Position numbers and translations under genes: made by a program
The notes under the pieces: generated by a model
What the model saw: only the letters and a program-made list of their open reading frames with translations
The model's database searches: none
What the model was told of the DNA's origin: nothing
Source of the DNA: Levilactobacillus brevis ATCC 14869 = DSM 20054
GTDB taxonomy: Bacteria; Bacillota; Bacilli; Lactobacillales; Lactobacillaceae
Reading direction: 5' to 3'
DNA: 64,000 bases
NCBI RefSeq assembly: GCF_001433855.1
Contig: NZ_AZCP01000001.1
Coordinates: 499,187 to 563,186, forward strand
In this document: piece after piece, positions 55,239-61,619 of the stretch
How positions within the stretch are numbered: position 1 is the stretch's first letter
How the letters are laid out: each line of letters opens with the position of its first letter

Positions 55239-55853
55239 TTATTCGTCTCCAATCATTTGTTCATAATCTGGCATCACCCGTGTCACCCGCAGTCGTTCAC
55301 TCCGGATGATCATTTGAATCCGTTCAACGGCCTGACTAACCTCATCATTGACAACGGCATAGTCATAGTTGCGCATCATTTGAATTTCACCAACCGCTTT
55401 TTTAATGCGCTTGTTGATGACATCCATTGCGTCCGTTCCCCGACCAATTAGACGATGTTTTAATTCCATCAAATCCGGTGGCGTCAAGAACACAAAAACA
55501 GCATCGGGACAATTAGCCCGCACCTGCATCGCACCGTTAACTTCGATCTCCAAAAAAACATCTTTGCCTTGGTCGAGAGTCTCATTAACATATTTTAACG
55601 GGGTACCATAGTAGTTGTCAACATACTTGGCATCCTCCAACATCTGTCCAGTCCGAATATTTTCTTCAAACTCTTCTTTCGAGACAAAGTAGTAGTCAAC
55701 CCCGTTGACCTCGCCCTCGCGCGGTTGCCGCGTCGTCATCGAAATCGAATAGGAAAAATCCGTTGCTCCCGTATCGAACAAAGCCTTTCGCACCGTTCCT
55801 TTACCTACACCGGAAGGACCAGAAAGCACAATGAGCATTCCACGTTTAGCCAT
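55239..55853 (-). CDS. gmk: Guanylate kinase
   Basis: 204 residues: P-loop [12 protein letters not shown] at 9-20, [20 protein letters not shown] for GMP binding, and the lid region with RLIGRGTD. Converts GMP to GDP. First gene of the block that runs to thiN. Confidence 0.97.
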
Positions 55854-56058: not shown

Positions 56059-56108
56059 TTGCATTTACAAACGTGTGTTCGTATAATAAAAATACAAACA
56101 AATGTTCG
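56059..56108 (+). promoter_or_regulatory. Promoter with two LexA-like (SOS) boxes
   Basis: TTGCAT (56059-56064), 17-base spacer, TATAAT (56082-56087): close to consensus. CAAAC-GTGT-GTTCG (56068-56081) fills the spacer and CAAAC-AAAT-GTTCG (56095-56108) lies just downstream. Both have the form of the Gram-positive LexA/DinR box (CGAAC-N4-GTTYG/C), off by one or two bases. Two near-identical boxes placed over one strong promoter suggest tight SOS control. Confidence 0.75.
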
Positions 56109-56119
56109 AGGTGATCAAC

Positions 56120-56443
56120 ATGCAAAATCCAATCGTTAATCGGCCCACCCTCTCTGATCGGGTCGCCACTGTTTATCAAGAAATGTTTAGTGCTTTGCCC
56201 GTCATTAATGGGCAGCTCGTTTATCCACAAATGCCAATGACTCAGCTTAGTTACTTTTCTCAACAGGCGATTACTCGCCACTATTTGGTGCAGTTGCAAT
56301 TTAAAGCGGCTACCAACGTGGCACCCACAACCGTTGTTGGTCACTTACAACAGGATGCTTTCGGTCATCTCATTTTAAGACAAACCAATCAGGTCACTAC
56401 AATTGTCACCCTTGAGCTATTGCGCTCGATTCAACGGTGTTAA
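56120..56443 (+). CDS. Uncharacterised small protein, probably SOS-induced
   Basis: 107 residues from the ATG at 56120, chosen for GAGGTG seven bases upstream (an earlier ATG at 56102 lies inside a LexA-like box). No family recognised: no signal peptide, LysM or transmembrane segment such as YneA-type division inhibitors have. The C-terminal half looks like beta strands. It is alone on the plus strand, with a strong promoter, two LexA-like boxes and a terminator. Confidence 0.75.
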   Translation: MQNPIVNRPTLSDRVATVYQEMFSALPVINGQLVYPQMPMTQLSYFSQQAITRHYLVQLQFKAATNVAPTTVVGHLQQDAFGHLILRQTNQVTTIVTLELLRSIQRC

Positions 56444-59386: not shown

Positions 59387-61087
59387 TTAACCATCTGCTT
59401 GCTGTTTCGTTTCTGCGGCCAATGCCAACAATTCATTAGCATGCTCCAAAGCGAGCTTAGTGACTTGGGTCCCCGCTGACATCCGTGCTAGCTCGTGAAC
59501 GCGATCGGCTTCATTTAGCCGCGCTAATTTCGTTTCAGTCCGATCACCCACGATTTCCTTAGCAATAAAGTAATGATGGTCCGCCATTGCGGCCACTTGT
59601 GGCAGGTGCGTAATACATAGAACTTGTGACGCCCGCGCAATACCGCTAATTTTTTCGGCAATCGCCTGCGCAACACGGCCACTTACCCCAGTATCTACTT
59701 CGTCAAAGATAATGCTGGTGATTCCTTGTGACTCGGAAAAGATGGTCTTAAGGGCCAACATAATCCGTGACAATTCCCCACCGGATGCAATCTTGGCCAG
59801 TGGCCGCATAGCTTCTCCCGGATTGGTTTGCAGATAAAATTCCACATGATCCAACCCCGTACTCAAAATGGACTTTGATCGCGTAAAGTGAACAGTAAAC
59901 ACCGTCTTATCCATATAAAGATCCGCTAATTCACCATGAATGGCGGTTTCCAATTGTTCCGCAGCTCGCTGGCGTCCTTGACTCAACTGTTCGCCCAGCT
60001 TTAATAGCGACGATTGTTGAGCAGCCACTTGACTCTCCAAACCATCAGCCGTTTCATCAGTCGCCTGCATTTGCTTCAATTCAGCAGCAATTTTATCATA
60101 ATATCGCAAAACTTGGTCCTCAGAATCGCCATACTTACGTTTTAGCTGATTGATAACATCTAATCGCCGTTCAATTTCATCAAGGCGTCCCTCATCCCAC
60201 TCCAATAAGTCTAACTGAGAAGAAACGTCGCCCACGGCATCGCTTAGCGCATAATACGCGGTTTCTAAGCTACTAGCAATCTGATTAAAGGCCGGATCAA
60301 AATCCGCAATGCCTTGCATCGCCTGCATGGCTTCACCAATCTGATCATTGGCACCCGGTGCCGCGTCCTCACCGGTCAAGATGACCTGAGAACGCTGCAA
60401 GGCATCATTGATTTTTTGAAAGTTATCTAATCGGTCTCGTTCAGCAACTAACTCATCTTCTTCACCAGAACGTAACTGCGCAGCCGCAATTTCTTTAACC
60501 TGAAATTGGAGCATGTCTAAATGCTGGGCCCACTCTTTTTCGTTGGCTCGCTTGTGTTCAAGCGTCGCCTGCAGTTGTGTGTAGTGTTGATAGATTTTCT
60601 GATATTGGGTTCGTAATTTGGCAACGTTGGCCCCCGCAAACTCATCCAACATCCCCAAATGCTTTTCTGGTTGCATCAGTTCCTGATGTTCATTTTGACC
60701 ATGAATATCCACCACGGTCTCGCCAATTCGTTTCAACGTATTCGTATTGACTAACATGCCATTCACTCGACACGTATTGCGCCCGTTTTGATGAATCTCG
60801 CGTTGTAAGATGACATTACCATCATCATGGTCAATTCCCAGTTCATCTAAGACCTGGTAAGTTGTCCCATCAGCCGGAAAAACAAAGCTCCCTTGAATCA
60901 CTGCCTTATCAGTGCCCGTCCGTACAAAATTCGCCGAACCGCGACCACCGGCTAATAAACCAACTGCATCAATAATAATGGACTTACCAGCCCCCGTTTC
61001 ACCGGTCAGTACCGTCATGCCATTCTTAAAAGTCACATCTAAATGGTCAATAATGGCAAAATTCTTAATGGACAATTCTTGTAACAC
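59387..61087 (-). CDS. recN: DNA repair protein RecN
   Basis: 566 residues from a GTG at 61087 preceded by AGGAGGGCG; a longer frame reaches 61225 but runs through a terminator and adds non-family residues. SMC-like ATPase: GETGAGKSIIIDAVGLL at about 30, coiled coils, LASGGELSRIMLAL signature and Walker B IIFDEVDTGVSG. Acts at double-strand breaks. After argR, as in Bacillus. Confidence 0.96.
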   Translation of the reverse strand: MLQELSIKNFAIIDHLDVTFKNGMTVLTGETGAGKSIIIDAVGLLAGGRGSANFVRTGTDKAVIQGSFVFPADGTTYQVLDELGIDHDDGNVILQREIHQNGRNTCRVNGMLVNTNTLKRIGETVVDIHGQNEHQELMQPEKHLGMLDEFAGANVAKLRTQYQKIYQHYTQLQATLEHKRANEKEWAQHLDMLQFQVKEIAAAQLRSGEEDELVAERDRLDNFQKINDALQRSQVILTGEDAAPGANDQIGEAMQAMQGIADFDPAFNQIASSLETAYYALSDAVGDVSSQLDLLEWDEGRLDEIERRLDVINQLKRKYGDSEDQVLRYYDKIAAELKQMQATDETADGLESQVAAQQSSLLKLGEQLSQGRQRAAEQLETAIHGELADLYMDKTVFTVHFTRSKSILSTGLDHVEFYLQTNPGEAMRPLAKIASGGELSRIMLALKTIFSESQGITSIIFDEVDTGVSGRVAQAIAEKISGIARASQVLCITHLPQVAAMADHHYFIAKEIVGDRTETKLARLNEADRVHELARMSAGTQVTKLALEHANELLALAAETKQQADG

Positions 61088-61105
61088 GTTTCGCCCTCCT
61101 AGAAT

Positions 61106-61156
61106 AAAAGACCACAACTGCTTCGTCAGCATGTGCTGGTCAGTCAGTCGTGGTCT
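61106..61156 (-). terminator. Terminator between argR and recN
   Basis: AGACCACGACTG and CAGTTGTGGTCT (one G-U) pair, followed by TTTTATT on the minus strand. The inner arm also pairs partly. Confidence 0.75.
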
Positions 61157-61163
61157 CAAATCA

Positions 61164-61619
61164 TCAATCCGCAAGCATACGGTCGATTGTCTTTTCCAAT
61201 TGTAAAGCACCTTGATGAGAAACACAAATCGTCAGAACCGAGCTATCGTCACCCACCGTTCCAAATACAAACTCGTACCGCATCTGATCAAGTAAAGACG
61301 CAATGACCGGACCGTTACCTGGTAACACCTTCAAAATCGTAAACTGATCTTGCACAGCAAAGGATATGTAGGCATTTTGGAGTGTTCGCTGTAATTTCTT
61401 TTGTGTATCAATCTTTTTCTGGACGGGTAAGCTGTAACGGTACCCACCTGATTCGGCTGGCAGTTTAACCAGCTGCATCTCTTTGATATCCCGTGAAATT
61501 GTGGCCTGCGTGACGTGAATACCATCTTCACTTAATAAGCGCACAAAATCCTCTTGGCGTTCAATTTCCCGTGATGTTAATAATCGTTTGAGTAGCTGCT
61601 GGCGTTCTTGCTTCTTCAT
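61164..61619 (-). CDS. argR: Arginine repressor ArgR
   Basis: 151 residues: N-terminal winged helix (GIHVTQATISRDIKEMQLVKL), C-terminal hexamerisation/arginine-binding domain with the conserved GDDSSVLTICV. Controls arginine synthesis and breakdown when arginine is bound. In the tlyA-argR-recN order of Firmicutes; a plantarum-group genome is expected to carry a second argR copy elsewhere. Confidence 0.94.
   Translation of the reverse strand: MKKQERQQLLKRLLTSREIERQEDFVRLLSEDGIHVTQATISRDIKEMQLVKLPAESGGYRYSLPVQKKIDTQKKLQRTLQNAYISFAVQDQFTILKVLPGNGPVIASLLDQMRYEFVFGTVGDDSSVLTICVSHQGALQLEKTIDRMLAD

Follow-up and report, generated by a model that had tools for sequence, protein, structure and literature searches.

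A stand-alone YolD-barrel-like protein under paired LexA-type boxes in Levilactobacillus brevis: a candidate modulator of translesion synthesis

Two questions are raised by a gene of unusual promoter design in Levilactobacillus brevis ATCC 14869 = DSM 20054: is it controlled by LexA, and what might its small product contribute to the SOS response? The gene lies in a window of 64,000 nucleotides, the whole stretch of DNA that was analysed, to which all positions given here refer unless a locus is named. A preliminary description, made from the letters of this DNA, proposed a near-consensus promoter, two LexA-like boxes, an orphan protein that could not be assigned and, on these grounds, a new SOS gene induced by DNA damage. 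The features of the locus are collected in Table 1.

Table 1. Coordinates of the gene, its control elements and its neighbours in the window.
Feature	Position	Strand	Basis or remark
Gene for a stand-alone, YolD-barrel-like protein of 107 aa (barrel predicted from homology)	56120..56443	+	ORF from ATG 56120
-35-like hexamer TTGCAT	56059..56064	+	Sequence; absent from promoter scanner's list
LexA-type box 1, CAAACGTGTGTTCG	56068..56081	+	In promoter spacer, touching -10
-10 hexamer TATAAT	56082..56087	+	Sequence, 6/6
LexA-type box 2, CAAACAAATGTTCG	56095..56108	+	Over expected transcript start (predicted), beside Shine-Dalgarno
Shine-Dalgarno-like GAGGTGA	56108..56114	+	By eye
gmk, guanylate kinase, divergent neighbour	55239..55853	-	Neighbour of the 56120-56443 gene
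recN	59387..61225	-	Two further genes between recN and the 56120-56443 gene

The 107-residue translation agrees with the preliminary description, and both boxes are present where it placed them, one in the promoter spacer and the second 27 bases downstream. The spacer between TTGCAT and TATAAT measures 17 bases and is mostly filled by box 1; the starts of the two boxes are 27 bp apart and both sequences are exact LexA-type sites. The term near-consensus is true of the -10 element only, since TTGCAT shares just three of six bases with TTGACA and was missed by the promoter scanner. Box 2 contains an alternative in-frame start, ATG 56102, from which translation would give 113 residues (MFEVINM...); because an ATG is possible within box 2, starts of the MFEV/MFGV type recur in other genera. 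Downstream, between 56493 and 59146, the gene is separated from recN by an ORF of 162 aa that matches nothing in Pfam and by a serine-rich surface-type protein of 690 aa with a SpaA domain; in many other genera recN follows directly.

Exact copies of the box pattern CRAACNNNNGTTYG occur at 7 places in the genome of 2,474,438 bases, compared with 17 for a reversed control pattern. Three of these sites precede lexA (46 bp; the LexA gene matches PF01726 with E 8.2e-22), a DinB-like gene (24 bp) and a UmuC-like gene (36 bp), the latter two names being ours and given on PF00817 matches. Two more precede the 56120-56443 gene and the remaining two fall inside long ORFs. With five of the seven exact sites intergenic and placed before lexA, dinB, umuC and the gene under study, all intergenic exact sites stand at SOS-type genes. 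The box type CRAACN4GTTYG is thus common to lexA, dinB and umuC, with one copy each, and to the 56120-56443 gene, with two; its promoter holds the only exact pair in the genome. When one mismatch is allowed, 255 sites are found against 322 for the control, so that the relaxed pattern is uninformative by number. Fourteen one-mismatch sites were picked by eye among the matches listed on contig C1, as a chosen set and not a tally: four are inside long ORFs, some precede genes for a DNA polymerase III alpha/PHP (dnaE-like) protein, a ParE/GyrB-type protein and two integrase-family proteins, and others precede SpoU methylase and DJ-1/PfpI genes. On the same contig (L195-L203), a one-mismatch box was also observed before a small ORF that resembles a single-strand-binding protein by eye and has no Pfam match. 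As described in passages of PMC3616900, 13 LexA operons are known in Lactobacillaceae, with parEC, addBA and nrnA as novel functions. In the window alone at least two box matches arise in 10 of 100 shuffles, i.e. the pair count as such is not rare; the placing and conservation of the boxes are not chance.

This conservation begins within the genus, where the protein was found in all 35 genomes (the own one counted; the frame is broken in G022). All 35 loci have two boxes with at most one mismatch, both exact in 28, spaced by 27 in 34 loci and by 29 in one. With a profile of 12 sequences (A1), 135 of the 301 genomes in the taxonomic family were seen to carry the gene; they are distributed over 19 of 40 genera. 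Ninety-six loci from 19 other genera were fetched, namely 95 of the 120 family hits outside the own genus, 25 being left out, and one (L046) from another family. In the 150 bp upstream, every one of them carries at least one box with at most one mismatch; a second box is seen in 88 and at least one exact box in 81, although the counts for L078, L093 and L159 are lowered by a doubtful automatic start or a broken frame. Among random windows of the same loci two boxes were met in 12 of 17,080. The spacing is 27 in 63 of the 88 two-box loci and 28 in 17, and a box stands between -35-like and -10-like elements in 35/35 same-genus and 91/96 other loci. The boxes are therefore kept upstream of orthologues, a point on which the preliminary description had made its proposal depend. 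Two broken frames, a frame change in L045 (G022) and an in-frame stop in L078 (G353), reflect decay or assembly error. As to its surroundings, gmk is present in all 35 same-genus loci (scored for presence only) and lies divergently upstream in 92/96 of the others, and recN is the convergent downstream gene in 56/96, which marks the gene as long established next to gmk, in many cases with recN on its other side. Mobile elements yielded no relative: a tblastn search of phages and plasmids with the window protein gave no match at E ≤ 0.01, and a scan of viral contigs covered 11 stretches in which no relative was seen. The one match in a scan of genome contigs, in a Caulobacteraceae MAG, covered 26 residues and was taken as spurious.

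Across the order, a larger profile of 61 sequences (A2) matched 217 of 395 genomes, with at least one true YolD among the matches, which are not all necessarily orthologues. Thirty further loci were inspected with a pattern in which the core AAC-N4-GTT is exact and the outer bases are freer, and 22 of them have at least one box within 200 bp. The two-box layout recurs in families f2 and f5 and in one sampled f7 genome; at three f7 loci the boxes deviate (CGAATGTATGTTCG and a half-site). No box lies within this distance in five of the 30, namely the umuC-operon locus L278, two from f4, one from f9 and one from f3. LexA was sought in 44 genomes. Among nine f4 genomes, three are without a LexA match and six have matches only near E 1e-5, some just above the Pfam cut-off and mostly in frames of about 350 aa, whereas strong LexA was found in all eight f3 and f9 genomes tested. 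Box loss therefore fits the distribution of LexA in f4, where both sampled homologues are boxless, and does not fit it in f3 and f9, where two of two are. The boxless homologues fall outside the main group of a 68-sequence tree and may represent a different branch.

Taken with the exact genome sites, these conserved operators strongly support LexA control and hence the proposed induction by DNA damage; with high confidence, we predict that the 56120-56443 gene belongs to the SOS regulon. Bound to a pair of operators, the first lying between the -35 and -10 elements and the second at the transcript start, LexA would keep the gene off, until RecA-driven cleavage of LexA would turn it on strongly. 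Both binding and induction in L. brevis are predictions from sequence. Membership of the SOS response thus stands by this measure, but novelty does not, as a LexA motif and induction have been published for lp_1611 of L. plantarum WCFS1. In 2007 this gene, which lies opposite opu genes, was described as having a LexA/DinR motif and being raised about 32-fold by hydrogen peroxide; the passages of that article at hand give it no family and suggest a possible regulator of transcription (PMC2174512). The likeness extends from LexA-type control to the side of the opu transporter, for 14 g113 loci combine the double box with two convergent transporter clusters downstream, for which BPD_transp was confirmed on a g113 member, and the OpuAC match comes from a g80 protein in the same cluster. 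Since the g113 loci show the opu arrangement, lp_1611 is very probably the same gene, orthology being judged by position alone. Control by damage has therefore been partly known since 2007, and the new part is the kinship of the family and its probable role.

The preliminary description proposed a comparison with profile libraries. Searches of Pfam, NCBIfam and PHROGs gave no match to the window protein at E ≤ 1, and the Pfam YolD model (PF08863) was likewise not matched. When 61 family members were compared with Pfam, 46 names were touched, mostly at chance level: one member matches YolD (E 0.0034), and the best score belongs to an implausible HEAT_SCC3-SA match in two members (E 2.8e-4). A profile search of the PDB returned no credible match (best E 0.087), and a single-sequence structure model of the window protein is poor, with a mean pLDDT of 43.6.

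It is by comparison of profile with profile that the protein ceases to be an orphan. Alignment by hhalign of the 61-sequence family with 35 YolD proteins fetched by PF08863 scores 30.6 (probability 67%, E 5.2e-5), and 32.9 (83%, E 8.9e-6) when gappy columns are removed; by comparison, 300 column shuffles reach 17.1 at most and the reversed control gives 16.4. The score rises to 39.5 (92%, E 6.8e-7) with 24 YolDs from umuC operons, the best of 300 shuffles reaching 22.8, and to 46.2 (95%, E 3.3e-8) with both sets merged, a value that has no shuffle control. Run over 1,085 ORFs of YolD loci, the family HMM ranks YolD best in 26/28 umuC loci and 27/35 classical loci; single E-values are modest, the best being 2.7e-7 for umuC YolDs and 0.0019 for classical YolDs, and one non-YolD ORF is placed fourth. 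A bridge between the two families is provided by L278 (G649), directly after a umuC that has its own box: this protein joins an arm motif, DRRFGMKW, to the barrel sequence of the 56120-56443 family, and it matches the family profile with E 2.0e-10 over positions 8-81 in the order-wide whole-genome search and with E 2.7e-10 by hhalign. Such a bridge makes homology to YolD hard to dispute. The term orphan was thus wrong, and the gene represents a lineage-wide family whose homology to the barrel part of YolD, as judged by profile comparison, we regard as likely. The window protein would accordingly be predicted to adopt an Sm/SH3-like barrel fold. Near the end of another umuC locus (L239, from G183), on the minus strand, a small protein beginning MQAKIVPGDFF matches the family profile with E 1.1e-5 and has no LexA-type box by eye in the preceding 100 bases; there are hints that it is another branch of barrel-only relatives.

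The family resembles YolD/YqjX (PF08863) in its barrel region and in SOS control, and differs from it in an absent N-terminal motif, in being missed by the Pfam model and in having its own locus beside gmk. An RG-x-KW-like motif, defined as R[GR], 0-2 residues and [KR]W within the first 60 residues, is found in none of 131 family proteins over that region. The fetched umuC loci, the 30 best-scoring of 240 genomes, contain a YolD-like ORF with this motif in 28 cases; the 24 umuC-operon YolDs used above all have it by construction, because they were selected by an RG-x-KW search. The motif appears, from passages of PMC12926913 and PMC6511836 read with the sequences, to belong to the N-terminal arm of YolD. 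Seen in this light, the family would have kept the barrel and dispensed with the arm motif, which makes it the apparent complement of published variants. In the YqjW-type mutasome small-subunit variants arm and barrel are also separated, but there the arm is retained and the barrel lost or replaced (described in part of PMC12926913), whereas the present family has the barrel without the arm motif.

Is the protein, then, a dedicated subunit of UmuC? A close UmuC homologue is present in 121 of 135 genomes with the gene and in 119 of 166 without it (Fisher p 1.5e-4, uncorrected for relatedness), in a table that is based on profile A1 and counts as lacking some genomes with distant relatives matched by A2. 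Fourteen of the 135 gene-bearing genomes have no UmuC homologue at E ≤ 1e-50, and umuC is not among the neighbour ORFs in any of the 96 other-genus or 35 same-genus loci, and the protein is hence no obligate subunit of UmuC. In the set of 30 further loci a position next to umuC is seen once, for L278, which is a YolD with the arm. The idea that the 56120-56443 protein is the missing YolD of a YolD-less umuC operon was discarded, because the umuC operon of the own genome carries its own YolD-like gene (L211 3018-3458). This operon, at L211 1462-3458 on contig C5, consists of a LexA-boxed umuC-like gene, a 107-aa ORF that overlaps the end of this gene, and the YolD-like ORF, which has a DRGMLKW motif and is missed by the Pfam YolD model.

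Our main reading, held tentatively and at a probability of about 0.45, is that an armless YolD barrel is made in the SOS response and modulates translesion synthesis. The product would consist of a short N-terminal region and an Sm/SH3-like YolD barrel, lacking the N-terminal motif of the region through which YolD is modelled to enter its polymerase. Possible targets of the free barrel are a Y-family polymerase (UvrX/UmuC or DinB type), the YolD partner of such a polymerase, and RecA; binding could alter the access or activity of the polymerase without supplying an arm; the partner, and a helping or restraining effect on mutagenesis, are conjectured from this homology. A more specific version, in which lactic acid bacteria have a dedicated SOS-induced free barrel that acts as a brake on, or as an alternative subunit of, Y-family polymerases and so forms the mirror image of arm-only variants, is speculative and in our opinion doubtful. 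The literature at hand leaves room for debate. In passages of PMC6511836, YolD is proposed as the UmuD counterpart of Gram-positive Y-family polymerases, with an SH3/Sm-like core, and 3 of 207 polymerase-bearing genomes are reported to have none. In the model described in part of PMC12926913 (2026), the C-terminal tail of the polymerase does not touch YqjX; the arm is hence the described contact, which speaks against docking of a barrel alone on the polymerase. PMC13335488 mentions, in the passages available, that an interaction of PolY2 with YqjX was undetected, which is given there as unpublished data, and refers to work that saw no significant effect of YqjX loss on mutagenesis. The role of YolD itself is disputed.

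The main rival, which we consider unlikely, sees in the protein a free barrel of the Sm-like type whose targets during SOS would be nucleic acid or the transcription machinery, comparable to Hfq or to the Rho inhibitor ROF/YaeO. Pfam ROF gives a weak match to one of the 61 members (E 0.0084) and an Hfq chain appears in the PDB search at E 1.2; moreover, YaeO and an Hfq homologue are among the closest structural matches of YolD according to passages of PMC6511836, and a role away from polymerases would suit the 14 genomes in which no close UmuC homologue accompanies the gene. These ROF and Hfq matches are weak and unscored against controls, however, whereas the YolD matches stand well above shuffles, and one umuC-operon YolD (L278) is inside the family by profile.

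Homology to YolD could also be read as the sign of an ordinary stand-alone YolD that performs exactly the job of the operonic one, and a precedent exists in the stand-alone LexA-controlled yolD of Staphylococcus aureus cited in PMC6511836. This small gene of YolD type, SACOL1986, likewise lies apart from the polymerase and has a LexA site and SOS induction; it differs in that the article assigns it, as a YolD homologue, to the uvrX system, and it is set beside our family by its description in part of that article only. We judge the ordinary-subunit explanation improbable too. The arm motif that marks nearly all of the best-scoring umuC loci is missing throughout the family, and the own genome also has the operonic YolD-like gene. 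Furthermore, the 68-sequence tree, built in quick mode on few columns, unites 39 stand-alone members with L278 at 98% SH-aLRT and sets this group off from the remaining 25 YolDs.

Control by a double box would also become a checkpoint protein, for example a division inhibitor that functionally replaces YneA, and inspection by eye of the ORFs in 4 kb around lexA revealed no LysM gene. The preliminary description had noted that the protein lacks the LysM layout of YneA-type inhibitors, and this was borne out: with no Pfam match of the window protein at E ≤ 1, a LysM-bearing YneA type is not indicated. The same result and the homology to a polymerase accessory family weigh against a checkpoint function, which we regard as very unlikely. 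Finally, a chance origin of the boxes, or their use by a different regulator, would leave the gene outside SOS control; we find this barely credible: one-mismatch sites are no commoner than the control genome-wide and the f3 and f9 homologues are boxless despite LexA, but position, spacing and sequence are kept over 35 and 96 loci, the same box type precedes lexA, dinB and umuC, and induction of the probable orthologue lp_1611 is published (PMC2174512, in the part consulted).

In the literature searched, with supplementary regulon tables outside its scope, the kinship of the lp_1611-type family with YolD is stated nowhere. Among the matches listed in a full-text search for lp_1611, only PMC2174512 concerns L. 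plantarum by title, and among those listed for Lactobacillus, YolD and SOS none bears on the family by title. The existence of a UmuD-like subunit in Gram-positive bacteria is itself debated, as the models described in passages of PMC6511836 and PMC12926913 favour one and the part of PMC13335488 on B. subtilis leaves the matter unclear. A conserved, apparently strongly LexA-controlled protein that consists of the barrel only would offer a clean handle on the barrel apart from the arm, and this handle comes in genetically tractable food bacteria. The gene lp_1611, singled out in 2007 as a strongly peroxide-induced unknown (PMC2174512, seen in part), gains a family and a testable role. If the reading as a brake or alternative subunit were true, these bacteria would carry their own limiter of mutagenesis, one that can be separated from the polymerase operon and that persists even in certain genomes lacking a close UmuC.
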